64,000 nt of DNA from Arachis hypogaea (taxonomy: Eukaryota; Streptophyta; Magnoliopsida; Fabales; Fabaceae). Positions 3,591 through 59,051 of this stretch are shown piece by piece. Location of the stretch: NCBI RefSeq assembly GCF_003086295.3, contig NC_092044.1, positions 76,346,024 to 76,410,023 on the forward strand. The letters run 5' to 3'. Numbering within the stretch: position 1 is the stretch's first letter; every line of letters starts with the position of its first letter. Position numbers and translations under genes: made by a program. The notes under the pieces are model-generated. The model had not been told where the DNA came from and did not search any database. It saw only the letters and a list, made by a program, of their open reading frames with translations.

Positions 3591-5185
3591 CAACACCAAA
3601 CTTAAATCTTGCTTGTCCCCAAGCAAGCATCAAAATTAAGAGCAATTGAAATGAATTAAGAAAAGAACACATATCCTTATTAGGCATATAGCAGAACTTG
3701 ATTTATGGGATCTTTATGCAGACAATGATAACTCAATTATTGTTGCTGTTACATAATATACATCTTTCTTCAAAGGCTTGCTAAACTTGCTGTTATAAGA
3801 CTCACTTTTTAATTATTCCCTTGCTAACTTTTCTTGGCTTATAATGCTTAACAAGCTTATTATTCTTTTAGAGGTTTGGTGTCTAATGTTGCAGTAATAG
3901 CCTTTGGCTTTATTTTTTTCTTTTACTCAACATCTTTCCACCACAGACACATGGCTCACTAATTCTTCCTAGGATCATTGATGCCCAGCCTCTCTTTGGA
4001 TAACTAAATGTTCTGTATCTAAGTTGCTCTTTATTGTGGACTTTCAATTGGCCATCCCAAATCAGTTGATCTAAGTGACCGGGTTTTAAAATACCCCTTA
4101 GAATTTACTCATCCAAGCATATCTTAGTACAAGAACACCACAGGCATATGTCCTAGGGTCCAAGCTATTGGTGTCCAACCTTTATTCTTTGTTTTTCTTG
4201 CCACTTTGGCTTTTTCTTCTTCCTTTTCTTTCTGTTTTTGTTCTCAAGGGCTTTTTTCTTTATTGATGAGAGTCTTTATATCAGCAAGCTAACTCACACT
4301 TTAATGAAAATGATGTTATGCAACAATTATTTCATGAGTTATGCATTTAATCAAACACATATACCACCATTAACTTTCATTCTTACTTATGCAACATTGG
4401 ATATTTCACTTTTCAATTCAAACAATTCTCTTTTATTTAAGCATGTGGGAAACAAAACAAAATTTCAAGCTAAGTGATGGATAACAAGCATTATGCAGAT
4501 TTAGCATTTTTAACAAACAATTTCACTTGCAACTAGATAAACACTTTAGCAAGACATACAATGGTTTCCAGATTCAAAACATTTCACAGCAGCAAGGATT
4601 AAGTTTAGATACAACCTTTGAAGTTGCAGCCCTTTGATTCTTCCTTCTGTTGTGTTCTCTTTGAGTTAAGATGCATAATGTCTTCAATTGTTGACTCATG
4701 TCCTGCATAATTCTCAAAGTTGCTTGCTTCTCAAGCCCTTAATTATATGGTTAGTATGCATAAACTGAGTGTGGTTCCTGGATTGATTTTGGTGTGGGAA
4801 CACCAAACTTAATTGTTTGCCACTGCCTCTTATGCAACAATTTTAACCATATGTGAAACCTTGTGTCCTTGCTAAAGTTTAATGAAATTAAAGCTAGAAA
4901 GCAATTAAACAGTCGAATAATGTGTTTGGTTGCTTGGAGCTAGCATCATGCAAGAGGTGAGAATGTGTTTTTAAATGATATTTTTGGTGGAACACCAAAC
5001 TTAGAATCTTTCATTCTCCCTTAAATTGTTTTGGTGTGCAACACCAAACTTAGCTCCTTGCAATGCATACCAATTATTCAATATTTTTATTGAAAAAGCT
5101 ATAAAAAGAAAGCTACCTCAGGTTGGGTTGCCTCCCAACAAGCGCTCTTTTATTGTCACTAGCTTGACATTCCTCCATTTTTACT
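3591..5185 (-). other. Element A 3' untranslated region with hairpins
   Basis: This is non-coding sequence between the integrase stop and the 3' LTR. Just after the stop is a hairpin (5122-5139) shared with B, C, D and F. Further along are three hairpins built from TTTGGTGT and ACACCAAA (about 4784-4810, 4983-5002, 5030-5052). The half-site motif TAAGTTTGGTGTT lies directly beside the LTR (3591-3604), in the place of the polypurine tract. The region aligns by eye with 24930-26501 of element B. Small ORFs here, such as at 4238, show no family resemblance and are ignored. Confidence 0.8.
5122..5139 (-). promoter_or_regulatory. Conserved post-pol hairpin (element A)
   Basis: In sense orientation it reads GTTGGGAGGCAACCCAAC, a 6-bp stem with the 6-nt loop AGGCAA, 46 nt after the pol stop. 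It is preceded by AGCGCTT. The same structure occurs in B, C, D and F. Confidence 0.75.
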
Positions 5186-6107
5186 TCAAGGAGGATTTAG
5201 GTTCTGGACCTCTTTTTCTTTGTTCCATTGTCCCCCTAGGTACAGTTTTGCTCTATGACCATTTGCTGTAAACTGACTCTTTGTTGCTTCATCTAGCAAT
5301 TCAATACTCCCATAAGGAAAGACCTTAGTTACCAAGTATGGACCAGTCCACTTAGACTTAAGCTTGCCAGGGAATATCTTGAGTCGTGAGTTGTACAAGA
5401 GTACTTGTTGTCCAGGTTTGAATTCTTTCTTCAAAATCTTCCTGTCATGCCATCTCTTGGATTTTTCCTTGTATATCTTGGTATTTTCATAGGCTTCTAG
5501 CCTAAACTCATCTAGTTCATTCAGCTGCAACAACCTTTTCTCTCCTGCTGCCTCAGAATCCAGGTTTAGAAGTTTAGTAGCCCAAAAGGCTTTGTGCTCA
5601 AGCTCTACAGGGAGATGACAAGATTTGCCATATAACAGCTGAAATGGGGACTTCCCAATAGGAGTTTTGAAAGCTGTTCTGTACGCCCAAAGTGCATCTT
5701 CCAACTTCCTAGCCCAATCCTTTCTTATGCTACCTACTGTTTTTTCTAGGATTTTCTTCAGTTCCCTGTTTGCTAATTCCGCCTGCCCATTAGTCTGAGG
5801 GTGATATGGTGTGGCTACCTTATGAATAACTCCATATTTGTGGAGAAGTTTCTCCATTTGTTTGTTACAAAAATGACCACCACCATCACTGATGAGACCC
5901 TTGGGTACTCCATATCTAGTAAAGATGTGCTTCTTTAGGAATTGAAGGACAATTTGTGCATCACAGGTAGTTGTGGCTATGGCTTCCACCCATTTTGAAA
6001 CATACTCCACTGCTACCAAAATATATCTGAACGAATAAGAAGGGGGAAAGGGTCCCATGAAATCAATGCCCCATAGATCAAACAATTCTACTCCAAAATG
6101 AAGTTCT
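5186..6107 (-). pseudogene. Element A integrase core and C-terminus (frameshifted from upstream pol)
   Basis: This encodes about 300 residues of integrase: the first catalytic Asp in GIDFMGPF, the second Asp in LISDGGGHF, and the Glu in the HPQTNGQAE segment. A GPY/F-like C-terminal module ends in a basic tail. It acts in insertion of the cDNA into chromosomal DNA. Upstream pol reads in another frame, because a single-base shift between about 6085 and 6108 makes the long upstream frame end at 6088. The shift separates the HHCC zinc-binding region from the core. All three catalytic residues remain. There is no chromodomain, as expected for an Athila-type element. Confidence 0.92.
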
Positions 6108-9100
6108 GTGGCATCTCATTCCTTCTTGTTGATCCTCCTGCTCTCTGGCATTCATTACATTGGTGGACAAACTCCCTGGCATCTTTGAAGATGGTTGGCC
6201 AATAGAAACCACTTTGTAATATTTTTGCTGCTGTTCTTTCTGGACCAAAGTGTCCACCATAAGCTGAGCCATGGCAATGCCATAATATATCTCTTATTTC
6301 ACTCTCTGGAATACATCTCCTGATTATTCCATCAGAGCACCTTTTGAACAGATAGGGTTCATCCCACAAGAACTTCCTTGCTTCATTCATTAGTTTCTTC
6401 ACTTGTTGCTTGGTGAATTCTTGAGGTGTCTTCCTCCCTACTTTGTAGTTTGCTATATCAGCGAACCATGGTGTTTGTTGGATCAGCATAAGATGTTCAT
6501 CTGGGAAGCTTTCATTCACAGGTACTGAGGCCTTTTGAATTGTTTCTTGTGGTAGCCTTGACAAATGATCAGCAACTAGGTTTTCAGTGCCTTTCCTGTC
6601 CCTTACCTCAATGTCAAATTCTTGTAGGAGTAGAATCCACCTGATAAGTCTTGGTTTAGCATCCTGCTTTGACATCAAATACTTGAGAGCGGCATGATCA
6701 GTATAAACCACAATTTTAGATCCTATCAAGTACGATCTAAACTTATCAAATGCATAGACTAGAGCTAACAATTCCTTCTCTGTTGTAGTGTAATTTTTTT
6801 GAGCCTCATTCAATACTTTACTTGCGTAATATATGACATGATGCAAGTTTCCCTTCTTCTGTCCAAGTACACCACCAATTGCAATATCACTTGCATCACA
6901 CATGAGTTCAAACGGTAAGTTCCAATCCGGGGGTGTGATAATTGGTGCTGTTGTGAGTTTATGTTTTAAAGTTTCAAAAGCATGCTGGCAATTTTCATAA
7001 AAAACAAAAGGTTTATCAATCATTAAAAGGTTACTCAAAGGTTTGGCTATTTTAGAAAAATCTTTGATAAACCTTCTATAAAATCCTGCATGCCCCAAGA
7101 AACTTCTAACAGATTTCACATTAGTTGGTGGAGGGAGTTTTTCTATTATTTCCACTTTTGCCTTGTCAACCTCTATCCCTTTTCTTGAAACTTTATGACC
7201 AAGAACAATCCCCTCAGGCACCATGAAATGGCATTTCTCCCAGTTCAAAACCAAATTAGTTTCTTGGCACCGTTTCAAGACAAGAGTTAGATGGTTTAGG
7301 CAAGTATTGAAATTATCACCAAAAACAGAGAAGTCATCCATGAAAACCTCTAAAAATTTTTCAACCATATCTGAGAAAATGGAGAGCATACACCTTTGAA
7401 AAGTGGCTGGGGCATTGCATAATCCGAATGGCATTCTTCTATAGGCAAAAACTCCAACTGGGCATGTGAATGAAGTCTTTTCTTGGTCCTTTGGATCTAC
7501 CACTATCTGATTATACCCAGAATAGCCATCCAAGAAGCAATAATAAGCATGGCCAGTCAACCTTTCAAGCATTTGATCAATGAAAGGAAGTGGGAAGTGA
7601 TCTTTGCGTGTGGCATCATTCAACCTTCTATAGTCAATACACATCCTCCACCCTGTCACAGTTCTGGTGGGAATGAGTTCACTCCTCTCATTGATAATGA
7701 CTATCATCCCACCTTTCTTTGGTACCACTTGGACTGGGCTTATCCATGAGCTATCGGAAATAGGATATATGATTCCTGCATTCCATAATTTCATTACTTC
7801 CTTCTGGACGACTTCCTTCATTGCAGGATTTAGTCTTCTCTGAGGTTGAATTACTGCTTTGGAATTGTCCTCCAAAAGAATCTTATGCATGCATACTGTA
7901 GGGCTGATGCCTTTCAAGTCATCAATGGTCCATCCTAAGGCATCCTTGTGAGCTCTGAGAACATCAAGAAGCTCTCCTTCTTCTTTCTTTGTCAAGGACG
8001 AATTAATGATCACTGGGAAGCTCTCTGAAGTGCCAAGAAATGCATATTTGAGATGAGAAGGTAATGGCTTCAGTTCTTTCTTTTGCACCTCTTCTTTCTT
8101 GCTTGGTTCCACCTCTTTGTCTATGGAAGCCTCAGCTACATGTTCCTCTATTGTTTCTTGATTGTCTTTTTCTTGCTCATGCTGATTTATGTCTAACATT
8201 TCTTCCACCAGGCTCTCTATCATATCCACCCTCAAATGATCTTCCTGCTCAGGAGGGTGTTGCATTGACTTAAAAACATTTATGATCATTTGCTCATTGT
8301 ATACTCTGAAAATCATTTCTCCTTTTTTCACATCTATAATGGCTCTTGCAGTTGCTAGAAATGGTCTGCCCAAGATGATTGAATTGTTGCCTTCCTCGTC
8401 GGTATCTAGGATTACAAAGTCCGCAGGGAAGATAAACTCTCCAACCTTTACTAACAGATTTTCCACAATTCCATTTGGTGTCTTGATTGATCTGTCGGCC
8501 ATGACTAGTGACATCCTGGTGGGTTTGAGTTCTTCTATGGCAAGCTTCTTCATCATGGACAAGGGCATTAAGTTGATACTAGCTCCAAGATCACAGAGAG
8601 CTTTGTCCAAGGATAGTTTGCCTATGGTGCATGACACTACAAAACTTCCTGGATCCTTAAGCTTTGGTGGGATTCCTTTTTGGAGCACGGCGCTACATTC
8701 CTCACTAAGCATCACCGTTTCCTTCTCATTCCAATCTCTTTTCTTATTGATGAGCTCCTTCAAGAACTTGGCATACAGAGGCATTTGCTCCAATGCCTCA
8801 GCTAAAGGTATGTTGATTTCCAGCTTCTTGAAAGTCTCAAGAAATTTGTGGAAATGCTGATCCTTTGTCTCTTTGTGAAATCTCTGTGGATAAGGCAGTG
8901 GTGGTGTTGAGCTCTTCTCCACTTGATGTTGTTTTGGATTTGGTTCTTCCCTGATCTGCTTTCCTTTCTTTAGATTCTGTGGTTCGTTGTTTTCCTCTAT
9001 GAGTTTTTTTGGGACATTCTTGCTTAACATGTCCTTGTTGATGGCTTCATCATTCTTTGTTGGCTCATTGTCATTATTCTTGGTTGCTCCTTGGTTACCA

Positions 9101-9495: not shown

Positions 9496-10695
9496 CTAAT
9501 TGTTCTGACTTGAGTTTCTTTGCCATGGTTGTTGGTTTTGATTATGGTTGTCTCCCCATCTGAGGTTGGGATGGTTCTTCCAAGATGGATTGTAAGTATC
9601 ACCATAGACTTCATTTGTTCCAGAATTTTGGTTGTGCATGTACTGGACTTGCTCTTGCTGTTGCTCCTCTTGAGTTTCTTCACTTTGCACCCAAGTAGTT
9701 GGTGGTTGGCTTGTGGCACTCACTGATGCAACTTGCAAGCCATCAATCTTTTTGGCCATTTGGTCAAACTGTTGTTGAATCTGCTGCTGCATTATCTTGT
9801 TCTGAGCTAGAATTGAATCCACTCCTTCCAACTCCATTACTCCTCTTCTTTGTGATGGTTGGCGTTGTCTTTGATGAGCAAAGAAATATTGGTTATTGGC
9901 CACCATATCAATGAGGTTTTGAGCTTCCTCTGTAGTTTTCATGAGTTGCAAAGACCCTCCAGCTGAATGATCAAGTGCTTCTTGAGCCTTAAGAGTGAGT
10001 CCCTCATAGAAGTTCTGCAACTTGTCCCACTCAGTGAACATCTCTGGTGGACATTTCCTCAATAGAGCCTTATATCTTTCCCATGCTTCATATAAGTTTT
10101 CAGCCTCCATTTGAGTGAATGTCTGCACCTCAGTCTTCAATCTTAGGATTCTTTGAGGGGGATAAAATTTGGCAAGAAACTTGCTTACCAAGTCATCCCA
10201 AGTGTTGATGCTTTCTTTTGGAAAGGTCTCTAGCCATTGAGTGGCTTTATCTCTGAGAGAAAATGGAAAGAGCAACAACTTGTAGCTATCAGGAGGCACA
10301 CCATTGGTTTTCACAGTATCACAGATTCTCAAGAAGGTGGATAAATGTTGATTTGGGTCCTCCAAAGGTCCTCCTCCAAAAGAACAGTTGTTTTGAACCA
10401 AAGTGATGAGTTGTGGCTTTAATTCAAAATTGTTTGCATTGACATTAGGCGTGAGAATGCTCCTTCCACAGTGTCTAGCATTTGCAAATGTATATGAAGC
10501 CAGGACTCTTCGTTGTTGTTGGTTATTGTTGGCCCCTTCTCCTGGTTGATTTAGATCTCCTTCCATTTCTTGGAATTCCTCCTCAGATTCTTCCTCTCCA
10601 ATAACATTCTTCCCTCTTTCGGCTCTTCTTATTCTCCGAAGAGTTCTTTGGTCAATTTCAGAGAGGACTGGGGAAGATCTTCCTATACCTGACAT
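9496..10695 (-). pseudogene. Element A gag (capsid polyprotein, premature TAG)
   Basis: This is gag of the gypsy element, which forms the particle that packages element RNA. I take the Met at 10695 (MSGIGRSSP) as the start. An upstream in-frame Met at 10746 would add a hydrophobic stretch that looks like leader. The retrotransposon gag domain covers LLLFPFSLRDKATQW through AWERYKALLRKCP, followed by the conserved LDHSAGGS segment and a Gln-rich tail. I see no CCHC zinc knuckle. The TAG at 9496-9498 replaces a TGG that is still present in B. The open frame continues beyond it into pol. Confidence 0.93.
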
Positions 10696-10885
10696 ACAAA
10701 CACACAACAATAAACACACAGATCCAGAAAACCAATGAAACTTCAATCTATAGCTAGAATGAAGTTTTAGTTAGTTTAAGCAAAAATTCAAACATTTAGT
10801 GTGTTAGTCAAAATTAAAATAACAGAAAAGAAAAATTGCTTGATCTAGATCTCCACTTCACTTAATCATTGTCAATCTATTGTAA

Positions 10886-10903
10886 TCCCCGGCAACGGCG
10901 CCA
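10886..10903 (-). promoter_or_regulatory. Primer binding site, tRNA-Asp (element A)
   Basis: The minus strand reads TGGCGCCGTTGCCGGGGA, complementary to the 3' end of plant tRNA-Asp including CCA. It starts 6 nt inside the 5' LTR. This is where minus-strand DNA synthesis begins. Confidence 0.92.
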
Positions 10904-10909
10904 AAAACT

Positions 10910-12849
10910 TGATGTGTGGAAAACGATCCAACACAAAACTCACCGGCAAGTGTACCGGGTCGCATCAAGTAATAATAACTCACATGAGTGAGGTCGATCC
11001 CACAGGAATTGAAGGATTGAGCAATTTTAGTTTAGTGGTTGATTTAGTCAAACGAATCAAGTTTTGGTTGAGTGGGTTGTATTTAACAGAAGCTAAATTG
11101 CTTGGAATGTAAAGGGAGAAGGGGAAATTGCAGTAAATTAAAGAGCAGGAAAGCAAACTTGCTGAATTGTAAAGAACAAGAATGTAAATGACTGAAACTT
11201 AAAGTGCAAGAAATGTAAATTGTAGTAACTTAAAGTGCAAGAAATGTAAATTGCTTGAATATAAAAGGGGAATTAAGGATTGGGAATTCAGAATTCCAGC
11301 AAGAGAAAGTAGATTGCAACAATTAATAAAGTAGAAGATGAATTAGAAGCAATTAGAACTCAAACAGTAAAGAAATTAAATGCAGCAGAGGTTCACAGAA
11401 GAACCAAGAGTAAATTGGGATCTCAGGACTTCAGAGACTAGGTAGCAAAGCCTAGATCTCAATTGCCCTCCCAGATCCAAGTTCTCAAAGCAATTGACAA
11501 GAATTTGAAGAAGAAGCAGTAAAGGGAATGTAAATTGAACTCAATTATGCAGAAAAATGTTTAAAGAGATTTTGAATAGAGATTGAGACAGAATTTCCTC
11601 AATTCTTCACACCCAAAACTCAAAACAAGGAAATGAAAAATGCCCAAGCAAGAACGAGGAAGAAGAGAGATCAATTCTCCTCCCCAATTCTCTGAAATCT
11701 CGGTTCAGTCTCTCAAAGAAAGGTTGCAAAAATTCAAAGCTCAAAGAAAGTGCAAAATTCAAAAGTCAAGTAAAAATTCCTAATTACATCAAACTAGCTC
11801 CTATTTATACACTTTCTATTCTTGGATTTTGGGATTTGGATGGGCTTTTGATTTGGTGAAGAAATGAATTAAATTGGATTTTTAATTCAATTTTTGGCCC
11901 AAAAACAATAGCTTCCAGGAGGCTGCCCTGCCCTTGTGGAGGGCAGGGCAGGATTTGGTGCTTGGTGCATGCGTGGTGCGGCGTGGTGCAGGCTTGGTGC
12001 GCAGGATGCTGCCCTGCCCTCCGCGAGGGCAGGGCAGAGAAAGTTGGTGCGCCAGATTTGTGCTGTGGTGCGCTGCTGGTGCTGCCAGATGATGCTGTGG
12101 TGCGCCAGAATTGTGCCACAACAAAATGCTGCCCTGCCCTCGCGGAGGGCAGGCAGTGTTTCCACTTTGACGTCCCGAGTTCGAAACTTGGATGCTACAC
12201 ACGCTACCCTTTTTCCTTGGCTTTCTTGGTACCAAAGTGAAGCTTAATTCCTTGCTTCCTCATGGTCCCGTGTTCAACTCTTGTGGCAAGCATTGTAGAC
12301 ATTTTCCTTTGATTTTCTTCCCTTGGTGAGCCCGATACTGCCCTTGTGGAGGGCAGGGCAAGGTTTTGTTCTTCTTGATTCCAAGGCACAAATTTGTGCT
12401 CTGCCCTTGTAGTGGGCAGGGCAGAGTTGCCTTTCATGCTTTGTTCCCTTATGTTGCCCTCCTAGAGGGCAGTGTGCCCTTGTGGAGGGCAATGCTTGCC
12501 TCCCCTCTTTACATGCGGCACACTTCTCCTTCCTTTGACCACGTTTTCTTCTCCTTTGGTCACGCTTTCTTAGGCCACGCTTTTCTCTTTTATTCTTTTC
12601 TTCACCTACATTAAACCAAAACAACCACTCCAAGTATCACTAAATTTACAAGGCTTATAAATCAATTAAAATTCAATTAAAATTAGCTTAAACCTCATGA
12701 GTTAACATCAATTTCATGGTGGTTGTTTGATTTAAAGAAGTTATGCATTTTCACTCCAAATCACTTACTTAGGATGCAAGAAAGTGCATAAAGACTAATA
12801 AAACAAGTGAAATTAGCTTGAAAAATGGGTATATGATGACTTGTCATCA
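10910..12849 (-). repeat. Element A 5' LTR
   Basis: This 1940-bp LTR starts TGATGTGTGG and ends CTTGTCATCA on the plus strand. It is the pair of 1630-3590 and drives the element in minus-strand sense. Its TATA box is at 11802-11809. One hairpin of the LTR-end module has a mismatch that the other copy lacks. Confidence 0.96.
11802..11809 (-). promoter_or_regulatory. Probable LTR TATA box of element A (5' LTR)
   Basis: GTATAAATAG on the minus strand at the same place as in the other A LTR and in both B LTRs. This copy would start the genomic transcript. Confidence 0.6.
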
Positions 12850-17289: not shown

Positions 17290-17290
<1 letters not shown>

Positions 17291-17348: not shown

Positions 17349-17351
<3 letters not shown>

Positions 17352-19806: not shown

Positions 19807-21835
19807 TGATGACAAGTCATCATATACCCATTTTTTCAAGCTAATTTCACTTGTTTCACTAGTTTTTATGCACTTTCTTGCATCCTATGTAAGTAATTTG
19901 GAATGAAAATGCATAACTTCTTTAAATCAAACAACCACCATTAAATTGATGCTAAATCATGAGGTTTGAGCTAAAATTAATTGATTTTTAATGATTTATA
20001 AACCTTATGAGTTTAGAGATACTTTGATTGGTTGTTTTGGTTTCTTGTAGGTGAAGAAAGGAAGAAAAGAAGAAAAACGTGGCTTAAGAAGTGTGACCAT
20101 GGGAGGAGAAGTGTGGTGCAACATAGAAGGAGGAAGCAAACACTGCCCTCCACAAGGGCACACTGCCCTCCAGGAGAGCAACATATTGAACCAAGCCTTG
20201 AAAAGCAACATTGCCCTGCCCACAACAAGGGCAGAGCACAATTTGATGCCAAGGACCAAAGGGAGCAAAAACTCTGCCTTGCCCTCCTCAAGAGCAATAT
20301 CGGGCTTCAATCAAGAATAATTCAAAGGAAATTGCTTCCTAGTACTTCCTATGGGTTTCGAACCCAAGGACAAGGAAGGAAGGAGTAGCGTTCAAACAAA
20401 AAGAAAACAAGCTTGCTTTCAAACTCCAAGAATCGAACACGGCACCATGAGGAAGTAAGGAATTAAGCATGACTTTGGTGCCAAGAAAACCAACGAAAAA
20501 GGAGCAACATGTGCCTCCACCGAGTATCAAACGTGGGATTTCACCTTTGGCACATTGCCCTGCCCCTCCACAAGGGCAGGGCAGCATTTTGTGATGCACA
20601 GCCAGCGCACAAGATTGGGCGCACCAAGGGAGTCTCGGCAGCAGCAGCATGCACGGGCAGCAGAATCTGGCGCACCAAAAAACTCTGCCCTGCCCTCCAC
20701 AAGGGCAGGGCAGCATCCTGCAGCACCACATGCACCAACACGCACGCACAAGGGCCGCACGCACAATTTCCTGCCCTGCCCTCCACAAGGGCAGGGCAGC
20801 CTATTGGAAGCCAAATTTTCATGGGCTGAAAATTGGATTAAAAATCCAATTTAATTCATTTCTTCACCAAATCAAAAGCTCATCCAAATTCTAAGATCCA
20901 AGAATAGAAAGTGTATAAATAGGAGATAGTTTGATGTAATTAGGAACCTTTTCTTTTGAGCTTTGAACTTTTACTTTACTTTTGAACTTTTGAACCTTCT
21001 TTTGATTTTTGAATTTGGAGACTTCATTGAGAGCTAGGAACTGAGATTTCAGAGAATTGGGGAGGAGAATTGATCTCTCTTCTTCCTCGTTCTTGTTTGA
21101 GCATTTTTACTTTTCTTGTTTGAGTCTTGGGTGTGAAGAATTGAGGAATTTCTGTCTCAATCTCCATTCAAGATCTCTTTAATCTCTCTACTGCATAATT
21201 GAGTTCAATTTCATTTCCTTTACTGCTTCTTCTTTAATTTCTTGTTAATTGCTTTGTGAACTTGGATCTGGGAAGGCAATTGAGATCTAGGCTTTGCTAT
21301 CTAGTCTCTGGAGCCTTGAGATCCCATTTTCCTTTTTGGTTCTTCTGTGAACCCCTGCTGCAAGTTAATTTCCATTTCTGTTTGAGATCTAGTCTATTTC
21401 AATTCATCTCTTGTTTTGATAATTGCTGCAATTTAATTTCCCTTTTCTGAAATTCTGAATTCCCAATCCTCAACTCCCCTTTCCATTCAAGCAATTTATA
21501 TTTCTTGCACTTTAAGTTACTGCAATTTACATTTCTTGCACTTTAAGTTTCAGTCATTTAATTTCTTGTTCTTTAAGATTCAGCACCTTTACTTTCAGTT
21601 CTCTTTAAACTCTGCAATTCATCCCTCTCCCTTTACATTTCCTGCTATTTACTTACTGTTGAATACAAAATCACTCAACCAATACATGATTCGCTTGACT
21701 AAATCAACCACTGAACTAAAATTGCTCAATCCTTCAATCCCTGTGGGATCGACCTCACTCCCGTGAGTTTTATTACTTGATGCGACCCGGTACACTTGCC
21801 GGTGACTTTTGTGTTGGATCGTTTTCCACACATCA
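19807..21835 (+). repeat. Element B 5' LTR
   Basis: This 2029-bp LTR has the same termini as the LTRs of A. It has GGGCAGGGC palindromes at about 20553-20583, 20690-20715 and 20771-20800, a TATA box at 20914-20921 and the LTR-end hairpin module at 21737-21802. Confidence 0.95.
20914..20921 (+). promoter_or_regulatory. Probable LTR TATA box of element B (5' LTR)
   Basis: GTATAAATAGG, also at 27608-27615 in the 3' LTR and at the matching place in A. It would start the genomic transcript. Confidence 0.6.
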
Positions 21836-21841
21836 AGTTTT

Positions 21842-21859
21842 TGGCGCTGTTGCCGGGGA
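21842..21859 (+). promoter_or_regulatory. Primer binding site, tRNA-Asp (element B)
   Basis: TGGCGCTGTTGCCGGGGA starts 6 nt after the LTR and has one mismatch to the tRNA-Asp 3' end. Confidence 0.9.
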
Positions 21860-22052
21860 TTGAAATAGATTGACAATGATTAAGTGAAGTGGAGGTCTAG
21901 ATCAAGCATTTTTTTTCTTTTCTGTTTCTTTAATTTTTGACTAACACACTAACTGTTTGAATTTTTGCTTAAACTAACTAAAACTTCATTCTAGCAGTAG
22001 ATTGAAGTTTCACTGGTTTTCTGGATCTGTGTGTTTCTTGTTGTGTATTTGT

Positions 22053-24929: not shown

Positions 24930-26501
24930 AGGGAGATCAATGTCAAGCTAGTGACAATAAAAGAGCGCTTGTTGGGAGGCAACCCAACCTGAGGTAGTTT
25001 TCTTTTCATAGCTCTTTCAATAAAAATGTTGAATAATTGGTATGCATTGCAAGGAGCTAAGTTTGGTGTTACACACCAAAACAATTTAAGGGAGAATGAA
25101 AGATTCTAAGTTTGGTGTTCCACCAAAATCTCACTTAAAAGAACATTCTCACCTCCTGCATAATGCCAGCTCCAAGCAATCAAACAACTTATCTAACTAT
25201 TTAACTGCTTTCTAGTTTTAATTCCATAACCTTTAGCAAAGACACAAGATTTCACATATGGTTAAGTTGATGCATGAAAAATAGTGGCAAGGAACTAAGT
25301 TTGGTGTTCACACACCAAAGTAAGTTCAAAAAGCCATAATCATTTTTAGACTAACCATGCGCTTAAGGGCTTGAGAAGCAAGCAACTGTTGAGAATAATG
25401 CAGGAAATTAGCCAACAATTGAAGACAGTTTGCATTGTGACTCAAAAGGGGATACAACAAAAGGAAGAATCAAAGGGCTGCAACTTCAAAGGTTATATCT
25501 AAACTTGATCCTTGCTACTATAAATTGTTTTGAATCTGGGAGCCCTTATATGTCCTGCTAAGGTTTTTATCTGGTTGCAAGTGGAATTGTTTGTTAAGTA
25601 TGCTTATCTGCATGATACTTGTCATTCATTACTCAGCTTAAATTTTGTTTTGTTCCCCATATGCTTGAATAAAAGAGAATTGGTTGAACTAGAAAGTAAA
25701 CATCTAATGTTGCATAAGTTAGAATAGAAGTTAGTGGTGGTAGGTGTTTGACTCAATTGTTAGCTCATAGAATAATTGCTGCATAATGACATGTTACTTG
25801 AAGCTTAAGCTGGTTTGCTGCTATAACCCTTCAATCAATGAAAATCCCTTGGAAATAAAGCAAAATCAAAAGAAAAGGAAACAGAAAAAGCCAAAAGCTG
25901 GCAAAGAAACAAAGAATAAGGCTAGGCACCAATAGCTTGGACCCTAGGACACATGCCTGTGGTGTTCTTGTACTAGGATATGCTTGGACAAGTAAATTCT
26001 AAGGGGTATTTCAAAACCTGACCACTTAGATCAACTGATTTGGGATGGCCAATTGAAAATCCACAATAAAGAGCAACCTAGTTACAAAGCATTTAGTTAT
26101 CCAAAGAGATGCTGGGCATCAATGATCCTAGGAGGAAATGGTGAGCCATGTGTCTGTGGTGAAGAAATGTTGAGCCAAAAATAAAGCCAAAGGCTGCTGC
26201 AACATTTGCCACCAAGCCTTCAACAAATAATAAGCTCTCTAATGCAAAAGAAAGAAGAAAAAGCTAACAAGGGAAATTATTAAAAAGTAATGTGTTATAG
26301 CAGCAACCTTGGTGAACCCTTTAGAAGACATTGTTTGTTATGACAGCAAGTAATAAATGAACTACTATTAATCTGCATGAAACTCCATGAACCAAGTTCT
26401 ACTATATGCCTAATAAGGAAATGTTTGCTCTTCTTTTTCATTTCATTTCCTCTTAATTTTGATGCTTGCTTGGGGACAAGCAAGATTTAAGTTTGGTGTT
26501 G
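24930..26501 (+). other. Element B 3' untranslated region with hairpins
   Basis: This matches the 3' UTR of A. It has the post-ORF hairpin at 24971-24988 and three TTTGGTGT/ACACCAAA hairpins starting at about 25060, 25109 and 25298. A final unpaired TAAGTTTGGTGTT is at 26488-26500, one base from the LTR. No gene is seen; a 65-codon ORF at 25530 has no support. Confidence 0.8.
24971..24988 (+). promoter_or_regulatory. Conserved post-ORF hairpin (element B)
   Basis: GTTGGGAGGCAACCCAAC, 41 nt after the true ORF end. Stem and loop are identical to those of A. Confidence 0.75.
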
Positions 26502-33344: not shown

Positions 33345-33349
33345 GGTTC

Positions 33350-37270: not shown

Positions 37271-37431
37271 ATTGCAAACGTGTGCCTTATTATTGGTTAT
37301 TGTAAATATTTTTCAAAAAAAAATTTCAGATTTTAAATTTTTTTTTTCTTATCTTATCCTTTTTCAAAAATTATATCTTTTTCAAAATATTTTCTTTTTG
37401 TTAGTTTTTGTTTTTATTTTCTCTCACTACT

Positions 37432-38769: not shown

Positions 38770-40401
38770 TGGTGGACGAAATTGTGATCATCAATAATGG
38801 CTCTTTGGTATGTGCATCTATTAACTCAGCACTTTCTTTTCACAACTTCGCTCAACTAACCAGCAAGTGTACTGGGTCATCCAAGTAATAAACCTTATGT
38901 GAGTAAGGGTCGATCCCATAGAGATTGTTGGTATGAAGCAAGCTATGGTCACCTTGTAAATCTCAATCAGGCGGATAGTAATTGATTAAGGATTTTCGAA
39001 AATTAATAATAAATAATAAACATAAAATAAAGATAAAATTACTCATGTAATCCAATGATGGGGATTTCAGATAGGTGTATGGAGGTGCTGTGTTCCTTCT
39101 GAATCTCTGCTTTCCTACTTCTTCCTTCTAGTTTTTCATCACTCCTTTCCATGGCAAGCTGTATGTAGGGCATCACCGTTGTCAATGGCTACATCCCATC
39201 CTCTCAGTGAAAATGGTCCAAATGCTCTGTCACAGCATGGCTAATCATCTGTCGGTTCTCAATCAGGTTGGAATAGAATCTAGTGATTCTTTTGCATCTG
39301 TCACTAACGCCCAGCCTTCAGGAGTTTGAAGCTCGTCACAGTCATTCAATCCCGGAATACCACAGACAAGGTTAGACTTTCTTGATTCCCATGAATGCCG
39401 CCATCAATTCTAACTTATACCACGAAGATTCTGATTAAGGAATCCAAGAGATATGCGCCCGGCCTAAGGTAGAACGGAAGTAGTTGTCAGTCAGGCGTGT
39501 TCATAGGTGAGAATGATGATGAGTGTCACGGATCATCACATTCGTCAAGTTGAAGTGCAACGAATATCTTATAACAGGAATAAATCGAATTGGATGAAAA
39601 ATAGTAGTAATTGCATTAAAACTCGAGGTACAGCAGAGCTCCACACCCTTAATCTTTGGTGTGTAGAAACTCCACCGTTGAAAATACATAAGTGATCAAG
39701 GTTCAGGCATGGCTGAATGGCCAGCCCCTAAAACGAAAACCAGGATGTCAAAATCCAAATATGGAACCAAGATGTCTAATAAACTAGTAAAAAGTTCTAT
39801 GTATACTAAACTAGCTACTAGGGTTTACAGAGGTAAGTAATTGATGCATAAATCCACTTCCAGGGCCCACTTGGTGTGTGCTTGGGCTGAGCTTGATCTA
39901 TCTATGAGCTGAGGCTTCTCTTGGAGTTGAACGCCATATTGTAACGTGTTTTGGGCGTTCAACTCTGGTTCGTGACGTGTTTCTGGCGTTTGACTCCAGA
40001 ATGCAGTATGGAACTGGCGTTGAGCGCCAGTTTACGTCGTCAAATTCCAAATATAGTATGGGCTATTATATATTGTTGGAAAGCTCTGGATGTCTACTTT
40101 CCAACGCCGTTGAGAGCGCGTCATTTGGAGTTTTGTAGCTCCAGAAAATCCATTTCGAGTGCAGGGAGGTCAGATTCCAACAGCATCAGTAGTCCTTTGT
40201 CAGCCTTCTTTCAGAGTTTTGCTCAGGTCCCTCAATTTCAGCCAGAAAATACCTGAAATTACAGAAAAACACACAAACTCATAGTAAAGTCCAGAGCTTT
40301 AAGTAACTAGATCATACTAAAAACTATTGTTTAAGTAACTAGATCATACTAAAAACTACCTAAAAACAATGCCAAAAAGCGTATAAATTATCTGCTCATC
40401 A
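38770..40401 (-). mobile_element. Element G: solo LTR of the C family
   Basis: This 1632-bp LTR starts TGGTGGACG and ends GCTCATCA on the plus strand. It is flanked by AGAAT at 38765-38769 and 40402-40406. It matches the LTR of C but lacks C's internal duplication. It interrupts the F ORF, so it arrived after F. A 29-bp tandem duplication lies at about 40302-40360. Confidence 0.93.
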
Positions 40402-40634: not shown

Positions 40635-41806
40635 CAGGAAGCTCATCCAATTTCCAACTTAAGGACTTTAACTAAAAGTGCTGGGTGGGAGACAACCCAC
40701 CATGGTATAATCGTCCCTTTTTTCAATTTTAATTCTAGTCTATTTTGTTTGTTTTTGAGTTTTGACTGAACCTGGAATCATGCATAGCATTCATATTAAA
40801 CATTGCATTCTGCATACTGCATTAAAAAAAAACTCACGCGACGCGTAAGCGTCGCTGACGCGTCCGCGTCATATGTGCGTTGGGAAGAAAATAATATGAA
40901 CAGAGAGTCACGCGAAAGCGCGGCTGGAGGCGTGCCTTTGACACAAGTTGACCCACGCGACCGCGTCGCCTACGCGTCCGCGTCATGTGGGAAGAACGCC
41001 TCCCACGCGTCCGCGTCACCCACGCGAACGCGTGCCCTGAAATCGACGTAAACAGGGTGTATGGCCGAAAGTTGAGCTAGAATTGGGCTGGACTCGTGCT
41101 AGAAGCGCAAGCCCTGCCACGCGTACGTGTGCCTCACGCGGTCGCGCCGTCTTCATAACTTGGCCATCCACGCGATCGCGTCAACCAAGTGAACGCGTCA
41201 CCCTCAAAAGTGGCAATATAATTTTTGAACAGAGAGTTGTGCGAGCGCGAGGCTGCCCTCGCGCCACTAGCACAAACAATGTCACGCGTCCACGTGGCCG
41301 ACGCTCCCACGTCACCTCACTTATGTGTTACCCGCGCGAACGCGTGCCCCACGCGTCCACGTCCCCTGCGCCGCACTGCCTATCTATCCCAGCGCCAACT
41401 ATCTTATCTTTTCTTAATCTTTTTCTTTCCCCTTTCTTAATTCTTTCTTCTTCGTTCTTTACTTTCTTCTCTTATCTCTATTCTTCATCTTATTCTTTCC
41501 TTTTCTTCTTCTCTCTTTACTCTCTTCTTTCTCTTCTTCTCCCTTTCTTTTCTATATTTGCTATTTTACATTGGTGTTACAATTTTTTTACTCATCTGTT
41601 GCATATCTCCTGCATTATTTTAGGTGCTTCTTAACTTGTTTGCTATTTAGTTAACATGCCATGTGCTTCTATTGTTTTCTCACTTGCATGTTGTAGCTAC
41701 CATGTATTTGAGACCCTCATTATTTGGCATTAACACACCCAGACTTTATTTATATTTATATTTTTATTTCTGGGTCACTTTTTCTTTTTTTTCTTCTTCT
41801 TTCAGG
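40635..41806 (+). other. Element F spacer: ACGCGT-rich array and pyrimidine tract
   Basis: From about 40835 to 41370 the motifs ACGCGT, CGCGTCC and CGCGTCA recur many times in imperfect palindromes, in an otherwise AT-rich element. From about 41395 to 41560 the plus strand is almost pure pyrimidine. It ends in a T/C run and TTTCAGG, a good plant 3' splice site, directly before an ATG. Open frames across the array (such as 41083-41634) look like by-products of low stop density. Confidence 0.7.
40684..40701 (+). promoter_or_regulatory. Conserved post-ORF hairpin (element F)
   Basis: GGTGGGAGACAACCCACC has a 6-bp stem with different pairs from those of A, B and D, and loop AGACAA. Confidence 0.72.
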
Positions 41807-47916: not shown

Positions 47917-49065
47917 TTAGTGGCGTCTTCTTCTTGAAGGACCAACAATGTCCTTAAGCTCTTCTATGTCCCTTCCTTGCCTTTGTTGCTCCTCCCTCAT
48001 TGCTCTTTGATCTTCTCTTATTTCATGGAGAATGATGGAGTGCTCATGATGTTCCACCCTTAATTGTTCCACATTGTAGCTCAAATCTTCTAAGGAAGTG
48101 TTGAGTTGTTCCCAATAGTTGTTGGGAGGAAAGTGCATCCCTTGAGGCATCTCAGGGATTTCTTGATGATGAGATTCCTCATGCATCTCTTGAGATCCGT
48201 GGAGGGTCTCTCTTGCTTGCTCCATCCTCTTCTTGGTGATGGGCTTATCCTCTTTAATGGGGATGTCTCCTTCTATGATAACTCCAGCTGAGTAACATAG
48301 ATGGCAAATAAGGTGAGGAAAAGCTAGCCTAGCCATGGTGGAGGGCTTTTCGGCTATTTTGTAAAATTCATTGGAGATGACTTCATGAACTTCTACTTCC
48401 TCTCCAATCATGATGCTATGAATCATGATGGCCCGATCCACAGTAACTTCAGATCGGTTGCTAGTGGGAATAATGGAGAGTTGAATAAACTCCAACCATC
48501 CTCTAGCCACAGGCTTGAGGTCCAGTCTTCTTAGTTGAACTGGCTTGCCTTTGGAATCTCTTTTCCATTGAGCTCCTTCCACACATATGTCCATTAGGAC
48601 TTGGTCCAGCCTTTGATTAAAGTTGACCCTTCTAGTGTAGGGGCGTACATCTCCTTGCATCATGGGCAAGTGGAACGCCAACCTCACATTCTCCGGACTA
48701 AAATCTAAGTATTTCCCCCGAACCATTATGAGATAATTCTTTGGATTCGGGTTCATACTTTGATCATGGTTCCTAGTGATCCATGCATTGGCATAGAACT
48801 CTTTAACCATTAAGATTCCGACTTGTTGCATGGGGTTGGTTAGGACTTCCCAACCTCTTCTTCAGATCTCATGTCGGATCTCCGGATACTCATTTTTCTT
48901 GAGCTTGAAAGGGACCTCAGGGATCACCTTCTTCTTCGCCACAACTTCATAGAAGTGGTCTTGATGGCTTTTGGAGATGAATCTTTCCATCTTCCATGAC
49001 TCGGAGGTGGAAGCTTTTGTCTTCCCTTTTCCTTTTCTAGAGGATTCTTCGGCCTTAGGTGCCAT
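47917..49065 (-). pseudogene. Element C accessory ORF (plant transposon protein family)
   Basis: Start taken at MAPKAEESSRKGKGK (49065). The frame of about 382 residues is broken only by a TGA at 48862-48864, where D has an Arg codon. Order: a basic N-terminus; KKVIPEVPFKLKKNEYPEI; GWEVLTNP with VKEFYANAWI; MVRGKYLDFSPENVRLAF; LKPVARGWLEF with SIIPTSNRSEVTVDRAIMIH; and a charged coiled-coil C-terminus. It aligns along its length with the intact protein of D and shares core residues with the copia accessory ORF. Function unknown. The position fits the env-like slot of Athila-type elements, but I see no signal peptide or membrane segment. Confidence 0.82.
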
Positions 49066-50042
49066 TGATGGTAATGGAAAACAAAAAAGATTATGCTTTG
49101 ACCACACCAAACTTAAAATATTGCTCGCCCTCGAGCAATAGAAGAAAGAAAAGAAGAAGAAGAAGAAGAAAATATGGAGGAGAAGGGGGAGTGTAGGTTT
49201 CGGCCAAGGTATAGAAGAGGGGATTTGTGTTGTGTGAAAATGAAGTAGAATGGAAAGGTATATATAGGGAAAGGGGAGAGGGTAGGTTCGGCCATTTAGG
49301 GTGGGTTTGGGTGGGAAAGTGTTTTTGAATTTTGAAGGTAGGTGGGGTTTTTGGAGAAGAGTGGATGGATGTGAGTGGTGAAGGGGGTAATTGGGAAGAG
49401 AGATTGAAGTTGATGGGAAGTGTGACATGGGGAAGAGTGAAATAGGATTAGAAGATAAGGTGGGAATATGTTAGGTGGGGATCCTGTGGGGTCCACAGAT
49501 CCTGAGGTGATCCTGTGGGGTCCACAAATCCTGAGATGATCCTGTGGGGTCCACAGATCCTGAGGTGTCAAGGAATTACATCCCTGCACCAAATAGGCAT
49601 GTAAAATGCCTTTGCATACCATTCTGGCATTTAAACGCCGAGGTGATGCACGTTCTAGGCGTTCAACGCCCATGTAAAGCATGTTCTGGGCGTTCAACGC
49701 CCATATGTAGCATGTTTCTAGCGTTGAACGCCAGTTTCATGCTTGTTACTGGCGTTCAGCGCCAGTTTTCCTTAAGGCACATTCCTGGCGTTCAAACGCC
49801 AGAATGTTGCTTGTTTCTGGCGTTCAGCGCCAGATTCATGCTCTGTTCTGGCGTTGAACGCCAGCCAGATGCTCCGTACTGGCGTTGAACGCCAGTCTGT
49901 CCTTCCTCCAAGGTGCAAATTTTTTTCTGCTGTTTTTGATTCTGTTTTTAATTTTTATGATTTTTTTCGTGACTCCTCATGATCATGTACCTAATAAAAC
50001 ACAAAATAACAATAAAATAAAATAAAAATTAGATAAATAAAA
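49066..50042 (-). other. Element C spacer with GGCGTT/AACGCC palindrome array
   Basis: About ten copies of a palindrome like TGGCGTTGAACGCCA lie at about 49622-49895, spaced by roughly 30 bp. Before them is a threefold repeat of GATCCTGTGGGGTCCACA with short spacers (49482-49562). No gene is supportable in this stretch. Confidence 0.75.
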
Positions 50043-50058
50043 TTGGGTTGCCTCCCAA
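50043..50058 (-). promoter_or_regulatory. Conserved post-ORF hairpin (element C)
   Basis: Sense sequence TTGGGAGGCAACCCAA, 5-bp stem and loop AGGCAA, 64 nt after the gag-protease stop. Confidence 0.72.
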
Positions 50059-50122
50059 CAAGCGCTTCTTTAATGTCAATAGCTTGACATTGTGCTCTCA
50101 TGGAGTCACAAAGGTGATCAGG

Positions 50123-54023: not shown

Positions 54024-54029
54024 AAAACT

Positions 54030-56188: not shown

Positions 56189-57112
56189 CAACACCAAACT
56201 TAAATTGTTGCTTGTCCCCAAGCAACTGAAAATCAAAATAAGATAAAAAGAAGAGAATATACTATAGACTCCAAAATATCAAGGAAACTTAGTTTCAATT
56301 AGATGAGCGGGACTAGTAGCTTTTTGCTTCCGAACAGTTTTGGCATCTCACTCTATCCTTTGAAGTTCAGAATGATTGGCATCTATAAGAACTCAGAACT
56401 CAGATAGTGTTATTGATTCTCCTAGTTAAGTATAATGATTCTTGAACATAGCCAGTGTATGAGTCTTGGCTGTGGCCCAAAGCACTCTGTCTTCCAGTAT
56501 TACCACCGGATACATACATGCCACAGACACATAATTGGGTGAACCTTTTCAGATTGTGACCCAGCTTTGCTAGAGTCCCCAATTAGAGGTGTCCAGGGTT
56601 CTTAAGCACACTCTTTTCTCCTTGGATCACAACTTTATTTCTTTCTTTTTCTCTTTTTTTTGAATTTTTTTTGTATCCACTGCTTTTTCTTGCTTCAAGA
56701 ATCAATTAGATGATTTTTTTAGATCCTCAATAACAGTTCTCTTTTTCCTCATTCTTTCAAGAGCCAACAATTTTTAACATTCTCAAAACAACAAATTCAA
56801 GAGACATATGCACTGTTCAAGCATTCATTCGGAAAACAAAAATTATTGTCACCACATCAAACTAATTCAACTAGTTTCAAGGATAAATTTCGAAATCCTG
56901 TACTTCTTGTTCTTTTGTGATTAAAGCATTTTTCATTTAAGAGAGGTGATGGATTCATAGGACATTCATACCTTTAAGACACGAATTTTAAATTTTATTA
57001 GTTATGAATTAAGAACAAGACTCAAAGATAGATATAAGATGAGACTAAAAAAAATAGAAAACAAAAATTTAAACTAGGCTCCTAATGATAGAGGTTTTCA
57101 CAGAGTTAGGAC
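56189..57112 (-). other. Element D 3' untranslated region
   Basis: It begins with AACACCAAACTTAAA next to the LTR and resembles the 3' UTR of C. No gene is seen. Confidence 0.7.
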
Positions 57113-58225
57113 TCAACAACCTTGATTTTGAGAAGTGGATGCTCCTTCAAATTGAGGGGAGAATTTCTGGCGTTTCAGCTCTTGGAGTTCACGCCCCTGC
57201 TTCTCTTGTTCCTTCAGTAATTTGCAGAGCATGCAGTTCTGATTCTGCTGTTTTTCCTTAAGTTGCTCCATAGTCTCTTGTAACTTGATGATAGATGCTT
57301 CTAGGCTGGTCCAGTAGTCAATTTTAGGAAATTCAGGGAGGAACTCCTGCGCCCTCCTTTTGATAGAGTTGTCTTGCATTTGTCCTTCCATTGACTTCTT
57401 GGTGATTGGATGTTCAATGGGTATAAATTCATCTACTCCCATCTTTACCCCAGCCTCTTTACAGAGCAAGGAGATCAAGCTTGGGTAAGCCAATTTGGCT
57501 TCAGTGGAATTTTTATTTGCAATTGTGTAGATCTCACAAGCAATCACATGATGAACCTCCACTTCTTTTCCAAGCATAATGCAATGAATCATCACTACTC
57601 TCTTGATAGTGACCTCAGAACGGTTGCTAGTGGGCAATATGGAACGCCCAATAAAGTCTAGCCAACCTCTTGCAATTGGTTTGAGGTCTCCCCTCTTGAG
57701 TTGGTTTGGGACACCCTTTGAATTGGTTATCCACTTAGTTCCAGGGAGGCATATGTCCTCTAGAACTTGATCCAACCCTTTATCTGCTCTCACCATTCTC
57801 CTATTGAAGGATTCAGGATCATCCTGCAGTTGAGGCAATTTGAAGATTTCTCTTATTTTGTCCAGATGGAAGTACATAACTTTTCCTCTGACCATGGTTC
57901 TGTAGGTATAGTAAGCAGTTCCAGTCATTCTCTGCTTATCTGTTAGCCACAGATTTGAGTAGAATTCCTGAACCATATTCCTTCCAACCTTTATCTCAGG
58001 ATTGGTTAGAACTTCCCATCCTCTGTTTCGAATTTGCTCTTGGATCCCCGGATATTCATCTTCTTTCAGATCAAATTTAACTTCCGGGATCACTGACCTT
58101 AGACCCATTATCTTGTGATAATGGTCTTCATGTTCTTTGGTTAAGAACTTCTCTTGATTCCAAAGATTCTTTGGATTATTCTCTTTCTTTCCTCTTAAAT
58201 TGGTTTGTTTTCCCTTTGGAGCCAT
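57113..58225 (-). CDS. Element D accessory ORF (plant transposon protein family), intact
   Basis: The start is taken at MAPKGKQTNLRGKK, 370 residues. An earlier in-frame Met at 58375 would add a hydrophobic Phe/Leu-rich stretch that is probably leader, but a signal-like N-terminus cannot be ruled out. The order is a basic N-terminus; PEVKFDLKEDEYPGI; GWEVLTNP and MVQEFYSNLWL; TMVRGKVMYFHLDKI; LKPIARGWLDFIGRSILPTSNRSEV; then a C-terminal coiled coil rich in Gln, Glu and Lys. It lies 868 nt after the pol stop. The core resembles the accessory protein of the unrelated copia element here. Its role in the element is unknown to me. Confidence 0.82.
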   Translation of the reverse strand: MAPKGKQTNLRGKKENNPKNLWNQEKFLTKEHEDHYHKIMGLRSVIPEVKFDLKEDEYPGIQEQIRNRGWEVLTNPEIKVGRNMVQEFYSNLWLTDKQRMTGTAYYTYRTMVRGKVMYFHLDKIREIFKLPQLQDDPESFNRRMVRADKGLDQVLEDICLPGTKWITNSKGVPNQLKRGDLKPIARGWLDFIGRSILPTSNRSEVTIKRVVMIHCIMLGKEVEVHHVIACEIYTIANKNSTEAKLAYPSLISLLCKEAGVKMGVDEFIPIEHPITKKSMEGQMQDNSIKRRAQEFLPEFPKIDYWTSLEASIIKLQETMEQLKEKQQNQNCMLCKLLKEQEKQGRELQELKRQKFSPQFEGASTSQNQGC

Positions 58226-59035
58226 GATCTTGATGAATCTTGGCTTAGTGATCACGGAAAAGCACACCAAACTTAGAGGTTTGCTTGTCCTCAAGCAAAA
58301 GAAAGGAAAGAAGAGAGAGAGGAGAAGAGCAAATTCGAATGGTGTGGGGAATGGTGAGGCCGAACAAGCTTTCATAAGGGGGGGAAGAAGAGATTTCGAA
58401 AAATTGAAAGGGGATTTGAGAAGATATGGAGAGAATTTGAGAGAAGGGTGAGTTTTTTGAACAAGATTTGGGATTGATTTGAGAGATTTGAAGAATGATT
58501 TTTTATTTTTGAAGATTTGAAAGTGAATGATGAAAGGTTGAGATGTATTTATGTAGAAAAGTATGGGTAAGAAAAGAGAAATTTGAAAAAAATTGATTGG
58601 AAATCAAAATCTTGGTCCCCCCACCTTTCTGGCGTTAAACGCCCAGAATGGCATTCATTCTGGCGTTTAACGCCCATTTGTTGCCCATTATGGGCGTTTA
58701 ACGCCCAGCCAGGTGCCCTGGCTGGCGTTAAACGCCAGAATTCCTTTATCACTGGGTGTTTTTCTAAAACGCCCAGGATGCTGCACACCTGGCGTTAAAC
58801 GCCCAGAATGGTGCCCATTCTGGCGTTTAACGCCCAAAATGGTACCTTTACTGGCGTTAAACGCCCAGAATGGTGCCCATTCTGGCGTTTAACGCCCAAA
58901 ATGCCCCTTACTGGCGTTTTTTCGCCAGTAAGCTCTTTTTCTCTGCTTTTTGCGCTGAATCCTTCTGTAACTCTGTGAATTCCTTCATTTTTGATACTTG
59001 CCTTTGTAAAAACAAAACATATAACCTGCTAATGA
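58226..59035 (-). other. Element D spacer with GGCGTT/AACGCC palindrome array
   Basis: About ten palindromes such as TGGCGTTAAACGCCA or GGGCGTTTAACGCCC lie at about 58628-58930, with spacers that themselves repeat (CAGAATGGTGCCCATTC). No gene is supportable. Confidence 0.8.
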
Positions 59036-59051
59036 CTGGGTTGCCTCCCAG
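59036..59051 (-). promoter_or_regulatory. Conserved post-pol hairpin (element D)
   Basis: Sense CTGGGAGGCAACCCAG, 42 nt after the pol stop. The outer pair is C-G where A, B and C have T-A. Confidence 0.75.

Follow-up and report, generated by a model that had tools for sequence, protein, structure and literature searches.

What is the role of a small hairpin that recurs just behind the main open reading frame (ORF) of five retroelements lying close together in the genome of Arachis hypogaea, and is it an RNA structure at all? The stretch in question comprises 64,000 nucleotides (contig NC_092044.1, positions 76,346,024 to 76,410,023 of the forward strand) and is called the window below. It carries five long terminal repeat (LTR) retroelements of Athila type, designated A, B, C, D and F. 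Here, we found that the hairpin is part of a longer conserved block. The data give good support to selection on an RNA structure, although the independent events are few. As to its function, our leading but tentative assignment is that of a cis-acting signal of the unspliced RNA, most likely for packaging or dimerization.

A preliminary description had placed one hairpin in each of the five elements, and all of them were recovered at these places in the sense orientation of their hosts. Stem and loop read GTTGGG-AGGCAA-CCCAAC in A and B (5122-5139, 24971-24988), TTGGG-AGGCAA-CCCAA in C (50043-50058), CTGGG-AGGCAA-CCCAG in D (59036-59051) and GGTGGG-AGACAA-CCCACC in F (40684-40701), just as had been claimed. 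Since A and B are 97% alike over the hairpin stretch, they do not count as independent cases. When the window was searched with GGGAGRCAACCC at no more than one mismatch, seven matches were obtained where shuffling predicted 0.38, and the five exact ones were the five sites. A covariance model built from other genome copies, without the window rows, retrieved exactly these sites at 57-75 bits, and nothing beyond them was found in the window at E<=1. A chance origin of the hairpins was excluded by the shuffled-window expectation, by this model scan and by genome counts compared with a reversed control (see below).

The conserved unit exceeds the hairpin. A conservation profile of 85 rows, for which part of the core was required by the sampling pattern, delimited about 45 nt reaching from -29 to +15 of the hairpin, and conservation was much lower outside. 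The block opens with a weak hairpin, H1 (GUCA or GUCC with UGAC or GGAC), which is followed by UUAAA, by a linker containing either AGCGCU or AGUGCU, and finally by the strong hairpin H2. The latter combines a variable outer stem, a GGG/CCC inner stem and the loop AGRCAA; that the rows show no variation at inner pairs 1-3 or in the loop is due in part to the sampling patterns, which required these letters. The AGCGCTT-like letters previously seen ahead of the hairpin contain a self-complementary palindrome, AGYGCT, within the linker. H1 folds in many rows, not in all. The whole blocks are located as follows:

5118..5173, minus strand: block of element A, with H1 at 5154-5169, palindrome AGCGCT at 5140-5145 and H2 at 5122-5139; 67.9 bits
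24937..24992, plus strand: block of element B, with H1 at 24941-24956, palindrome at 24965-24970 and H2 at 24971-24988; 71.1 bits
50038..50093, minus strand: block of element C, with H1 at 50074-50089, palindrome at 50060-50065 and H2 at 50042-50059; 74 bits
59031..59086, minus strand: block of element D, with an H1 core of 3 bp only, AGTGCT at 59053-59058 and H2 at 59035-59052; 75.2 bits
40648..40705, plus strand: block of element F, with a 3-bp H1 at 40653-40665, AGTGCT at 40677-40682 and H2 at 40684-40701 with the loop AGACAA; 57.1 bits

Quantification in the 2.56-Gb genome yielded 70,957 copies of the core KGGGAGRCAACCCM (35,583 + 35,374) as compared with 11 (2 + 9) for the reversed control. 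Among the first 30 core loci, 29 showed the larger block (one of them, L004, lacks a proper H1) and one (L009) was a chance match. When 1.5 kb on each side were inspected, an ORF of a window element was found upstream in 77 of 79 block rows, and in 59 of the 79 the env-like protein of D or C was the best downstream match; these rows represent 72 distinct places, since seven loci entered twice. For the A lineage, the last 119 residues of the A integrase were compared with the genome, and 20 of at least 150 matches were chosen blind to what lies downstream. All 20 pol ends carried the block, 19 with the exact core and one with a single stem change. They are 96-99% like A in protein and, as close kin of A, say little about other lineages. 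The 56-position covariance model provides a compact non-coding marker for Athila-type elements including those without pol.

The evidence for an RNA structure comes from the outer stem of H2. At pair 5 (anchor GCTKN), 34,170 genome copies retained T-A and 13,355 had changed on both sides, as against 352 with a change on the left only and 669 on the right only; many of the right-only copies listed were T-G, which is still paired in RNA. In the 100 listed copies with both sides changed, 94 Watson-Crick pairs, one G-T and five mispairs were counted. Pair 4 moves from T-A to C-G as a unit: the genome count, which covers the both-changed class only, gave 791 copies (391 + 400), and 100 out of 100 listed were C-G. 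Some of the pair-4 loci retrieved have an integrase match that ends at the block, and others have none. The genome counts are the less biased figures in this analysis, and the copies behind them are related to each other.

Two sets of rows were then compared with 500 shuffles and with slid controls. In set A1 (31 rows), 98.4% of the cells were paired, and 24 double-change cells were observed as opposed to 6.4 in the shuffles and 0-4 in the slid controls. Here, pair 5 occurs in all four Watson-Crick types (C-G 11, U-A 10, G-C 7, A-U 2). In set A3 (39 rows), H2 was 97.9% paired, with double changes at pairs 4 (16), 5 (13) and 6 (2); both helices together gave 40 double-change cells compared with 13.6 in the shuffles and 2-8 in the slid controls. 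For both sets the percentage paired, the double-change cells and the covariation score exceeded all shuffles and the slid controls. Sampling has to be considered when these values are read. A1 comprises 31 of 52 distinct rows, and the 21 omitted belong to samples selected for an odd pair 5 (out of L181-L200 and L213-L218); pair 5 is paired in one of these 21, in 31 of 52 rows when they are included and in 46 of 68 when 16 pair-4 loci are added. Six A1 rows (L208-L210, L219, L221, L222) were hand-picked for variety from the both-changed list, and A3 omits L207 and the F-type rows, in which H1 is one letter longer.

Since the shuffles do not account for kinship, a tree of 25 rows was calculated from the end of pol with the block excluded. 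It separates the lineages D, A, F and G, the usual stems of which are GCTGGG/CCCAG(T or C), GTTGGG/CCCAAC, GGTGGG/CCCACC and GTCGGG/CCCGAT, respectively. At least two changes at pair 4, seven at pair 5 and six at pair 6 are needed on this tree. However, four of the seven pair-5 changes belong to L187, L189, L213 and L217, which were picked for mismatch, and L226, on a very long branch, adds one more pair-5 change and one of the two pair-4 changes. Mispaired stems in single copies resemble decay at the tips of the tree. A further locus, L219, groups with A and B in the protease region (83%) and has almost the same 30 letters upstream. Its stem CATGGG/CCCATG differs from the GTTGGG/CCCAAC of A and B by four changes, all of them paired. 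Thus, the earlier proposal of selection on RNA structure was borne out: three positions of the stem have changed in pairs, and the lineages concerned are apart in the end-of-pol tree.

Several observations weigh against this conclusion. Independent paired events are few, about five at the lineage level by manual count. The number of pairs with changes on both sides did not exceed the shuffles (366 and 164 of 500 shuffles reached the observed value for A1 and A3), nor did the number of further pair types (326 and 500 of 500). That these two of the five measures stay within the shuffles is due to the small number of variable pairs, two or three. Moreover, D has a weak H1 and L004 none, and no covariation was seen within the palindrome itself. 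One might ask whether the block has no RNA function and was spread by recombination between families, its paired stems being founder accidents copied thousands of times. Copies within a family do share one origin, the two measures that miss the shuffles are the ones least sensitive to relatedness, and Athila families have been reported to recombine (PMC2410132). However, four tree-separated pol lineages carry four different paired stems, the slid controls remain far under the real structure, the flanks of the block vary freely, and the block is also present in a plant-like contig from elsewhere (L207, see below). We consider such an origin highly unlikely.

A signal acting in DNA, such as a cruciform or a protein site, would also covary, since inverted repeats do so in DNA too, and the linker is a DNA palindrome. 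Yet G-U is the commonest state of pair 6 in A3 (21 of 39 rows), and the outer pair of H1 is U-G in six of these rows (C-G 12, U-A 9, unpaired 12). Both wobble pairs fit the sense RNA and would be A-C on the other strand, and the position of the block tracks the stop codon. We give a DNA-level signal less credit still than founder accidents. Because the wobble pairs exist in the sense strand only and the place after the stop is fixed, the data point to a structure that acts in sense RNA. The covariation of H1, which was observed at its outer pair, is a lesser claim, since this helix is only 83.6% paired.

The position of the block deserves closer inspection. The distance from the end of the main ORF to the hairpin had been given as 41-64 nt. 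The distances themselves stood (46 nt in A, 41 in B, 64 in C, 42 in D, 49 in F), but those of B and F are not counted from the long ORF. In B the long ORF (23229-24764) stops about 206 nt upstream and only a short open stretch ends at 41 nt. Similarly, the 460-aa ORF of F (37405-38787) stops 1.9 kb upstream, and the frame at 49 nt is a short open stretch. In general, the block is mostly found 40-48 nt past the gag/pol stop and ahead of the env-like ORF where there is one. Gaps of 40, 41, 42 or 48 nt account for 79 of 110 rows, and the gap is near-fixed across lineages. These usual gaps are in different phases. A hidden ORF running across the hairpin was rejected as an explanation, because the three frames are open in 38, 9 and 7 of 110 rows in sense and in 21, 7 and 8 in antisense, with no majority for any. 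With no majority open frame and gaps out of phase, the view that the hairpin is not a coding by-product was confirmed. The retention of the hairpin in non-autonomous elements was found again in a gag/env-like element without recognized pol and in pol-less copies of a further lineage.

Behind H2, many copies have a U-rich tract with an end like that of a 3' splice site, mostly within about 20-65 nt. The best acceptor score was 9 or higher in 51% of the 79 rows, as compared with 14% when that stretch was shuffled and 0-5% in four other stretches taken as controls. Several D-type copies show TACTAAT, a T-run and ACAG|GT, and most of the 20 A-lineage pol ends have a tract like that of A behind H2. 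Four elements of the window have such a tract, whereas its AG is lost in D:

5099..5121, minus strand: 3' splice-site-like pyrimidine tract of element A, adjoining H2 and with TAG at its end
24989..25011, plus strand: tract of element B, 3' splice-site-like as in A
49991..50041, minus strand: U-rich tract of element C ending in TTATTAG|GT, 3' splice-site-like
40702..40738, plus strand: pyrimidine-rich tract of element F ending in TTCTAG, 3' splice-site-like

Splicing has been reported for the barley element Bagy2 (PMC7264820). Judged from the letters, the block would probably lie within an env intron, at its 3' end. A 3' splice-site-like TTTGTATGTCAG|GT is also present before gag in the leaders of A and B (10300-10960, 21786-22400). 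The block could restrain the env 3' splice site that follows, or it could bind an export factor; either way, enough of the unspliced RNA would reach the cytoplasm. The tract in half of the rows and the Bagy2 splicing would suit such a role, and Cer1, an LTR retrotransposon of Caenorhabditis elegans, reportedly requires a protein of its own for export of its unspliced RNA (PMC10309623). However, A and B keep the block with no sense ORF of at least 100 aa ahead of the 3' LTR, an objection qualified by L162, an A-like pol copy with an env-like match downstream. Moreover, the leaders of the five elements yielded no conserved candidate for a 5' splice donor, and the distance to the best candidate acceptor ranges from 23 to 79 nt in the printed rows, with no candidate in L219. 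We regard splice or export control as a close rival of the mechanism considered next, but as rather unlikely.

The mechanism that we prefer, a signal for packaging or dimerization, would work in cis in the sense, full-length RNA. Lying between the gag/pol stop and the splice-site-like tract, the block would be absent from a spliced env-type message and could mark the unspliced genomic RNA for choice by Gag. Loop and linker would be the letters recognized, and the stem would merely have to pair; in the rows, loop and linker are near-invariant and the stem letters vary. The palindrome may join two RNAs, and when dimers were modeled with RNAcofold, it paired between two copies in four out of five cases with H2 intact. 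That gag-only and other non-autonomous elements keep the block would follow from this mechanism, since they borrow their proteins. Of the cis-acting roles listed in the preliminary description (packaging, transport, translation end, dimerization), all stay on the list and no single one is singled out; the hairpin is probably a tag for the correct handling of element RNA.

This mechanism has its own difficulties. L207, which has a T-T mismatch at pair 5, paired differently in the RNAcofold prediction. Known retroviral packaging and dimer signals sit in the 5' leader, and all five blocks lie past the ORF end; owing to this location we do not file the block as a psi element, but it may still work like one. 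In addition, packaging does not need a near-fixed gap to the stop codon, which fits a role linked to termination better. By analogy, the block could be a post-stop element that shields the RNA from nonsense-mediated decay (NMD). At the usual gaps it starts about 11-19 nt past the stop, and this spacing holds across lineages. Turnip crinkle virus RNAs are reported to be protected by a post-stop readthrough structure and by an unstructured start of the 3' untranslated region (UTR) (PMC6277124), and Rous sarcoma virus (RSV) has an element directly past its gag stop (PMC5580461). A U-rich stretch follows the hairpin here, too. On the other hand, the gap of pol-less copies may have been inherited with the pol tail, and the long ORF of B ends far upstream. 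The resistance of the carmovirus 3' UTR is tied in that study to lack of structure rather than to sequence (PMC6277124), so that an invariant loop would be unexpected for an NMD shield. Taken together, we regard protection from NMD, or another role linked to termination, as conceivable without being likely, and rank packaging or dimerization modestly above both this alternative and splice or export control.

The search was extended beyond the source genome. The collection of genome contigs gave seven matches to the block pattern, six of which lack the remainder; only L207 has the full block (TGTCA.GCT..TGAC.TTAAA...AGCGCTT.TTGGGAGGCAACCCA). This locus (LFMX01000071.1, 251-6479) is recorded as Candidatus Burkholderia humilis, and a model blind to it scored it at 45.9 bits, as opposed to 24.9 bits or less for the other 66 loci scanned. 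L207 has 44% GC, a long ORF, which we take to be a CACTA-type transposase, and a CCHC gag-like ORF. On the basis of these three features we read it as plant DNA in a symbiont assembly, and likely as contamination from the host, which is presumably Psychotria (Rubiaceae). The outer pair of its stem is C-G. No match was obtained when the window proteins were compared with L207, and a pattern search in 58 genomes of the genus under which L207 is recorded gave only the L207 site itself. In viral contigs the bare 14-mer matched at least 120 stretches, which is about the order expected by chance; the 60 of these that were scanned with the model (L031-L090) reached 24.9 bits at best, the longer block pattern gave no match, and an Athila pol query found no relative. 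Plasmids yielded no block match.

The assignment of the host elements to the Athila group is putative; it agrees with pol order, primer site and env-like ORF, and is to be taken as a sequence-based label. Pfam detected a gag-like domain, reverse transcriptase (RT), RNase H and integrase in A and D (PF03732, PF00078, PF17917, PF17921, PF00665), which gives the Ty3-type order RT, RNase H, integrase with the gag-like domain upstream; parts of it are missing in B, C and F. The LTRs of A extend over 1630-3590 and 10910-12849. In B, a gag-like domain was accompanied by a weak match to a protease. C combines a gag domain with a PF20167 ORF but has no recognized pol, and the long ORF of F had no Pfam match. 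The primer site TGGCGCCGTTGCCGGGGA, which presumably pairs with tRNA-Asp, is present in the leaders of A and D and is one letter off in those of B, C and F. As expected of an env-like ORF ahead of the 3' LTR, an ORF with PF20167 is present in C and D, whereas none was detected in A and B; PF20167 is probably the env-like protein of Athila. The best named matches of the D protein are from A. hypogaea and other Arachis, followed by Stylosanthes. The coding features next to the blocks are these:

59094..61751, minus strand: pol frame of element D (RT, RNase H, integrase by Pfam); its stop is 42 nt ahead of the hairpin
57113..58603, minus strand: env-like ORF of element D, located downstream of the block and matching PF20167 ("putative plant transposon protein")
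47917..48861, minus strand: env-like ORF of element C (PF20167), downstream of the block
5186..6115, minus strand: integrase frame of element A, ending 46 nt ahead of the hairpin

Further features of the window were recorded alongside. Between the F ORF and its hairpin, a stretch related to the C and D LTRs (38770-40401) looks like a solo LTR, since it starts with TG, ends with CA and has AGAAT on both flanks. A D-like pol fragment lies left of the elements (1-1628), the pol match ending before the gene end, and a Ty1/copia fragment (RVT_2, SH3_retrovirus; 31585-33398) is located among the Athila elements; in this fragment the covariance model found no block. The spacers after the D and C blocks (58631-58884, 49658-49881) contain many near-palindromic 13-mers such as GGCGTTTAACGCC and GGCGTTCAACGCC, two copies of which are inside the gag/protease frame of D (62964-63027). 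The motif AAGTTTGGTGT occurs 16 times in the window (3593, 4800, 4992, 5041, 25059, 25108, 25297, 26489, 46816, 49104, 50142, 50175, 53581, 53780, 56191, 58264), in the sense orientation of its host element as far as the bounds are known, and directly adjoins the 3' LTRs of A (3593) and B (26489).

Many plant genomes contain Athila-type elements in very large numbers, and Athila6 is reported to be active in the Arabidopsis mutants ddm1 and met1 (PMC3276544). We know of no account of how the genomic RNA of Athila-type elements is distinguished from messages or how non-autonomous copies are mobilized. A short, strongly conserved RNA element offers a handle on both problems. In its widest form our proposal is that Athila genomic RNA would be defined by an undescribed element, which a legume would have in common with a distant flowering plant, provided that L207 has been read correctly. 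The element would be a packaging and dimer signal in the env intron after the stop, recognized in trans, by which tens of thousands of gene-poor copies could ride along with complete ones. This combined picture is more doubtful than the packaging signal as such. Rfam 15 gave no match at the gathering score in the window and L207 and none at E<=0.1 in L225, L221, L001 and L219. In line with the preliminary description, titles, abstract starts and some passages of the open-access papers retrieved contained no description of the hairpin; the core letters occur in one open-access paper, on an Escherichia coli prophage.

Among known systems, retroviral psi and the dimerization initiation site resemble the block in that their hairpins are short, have loops rich in purines, include a stretch complementary to itself and are present in unspliced RNA only. 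They differ in being part of the 5' leader, whereas the block comes after the ORF and, in A, some 5.8 kb away from the 5' LTR. The env-less soybean element Diaspora belongs to the same Athila group; its report gives a tRNA-Asp primer for it and the Calypso group and 128 bp from the pol stop to the polypurine tract (PPT), and in the text of the report, on which the comparison was based, the words hairpin and stem are absent (PMC1142308). Sireviruses are likewise a diverse group of plant retrotransposons with conserved non-coding motifs, some near an env-like gene, but they are Ty1/copia elements. Their motifs comprise copies of the PPT, CGG-CCG boxes and an inverted repeat that surrounds the PPT/LTR junction, with no post-stop hairpin among them (PMC2829016). 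The NMD-resistance regions of Turnip crinkle virus also lie immediately past a stop in a plant system, and one of them is a structure; the 3' UTR region works through lack of structure (PMC6277124), whereas the block conserves letters and a hairpin. The RSV stability element, too, is part of an unspliced retroelement RNA whose 3' UTR is long; it is found directly past the gag stop, and the block is immediately 3' of the gag/pol stop in the same manner. The RSV element covers 400 nt and its protection from decay was shown by test (PMC5580461), whereas the block has about 45 nt and is known here from its sequence. We rate this undescribed block among the cis-acting RNA elements of LTR retroelements.

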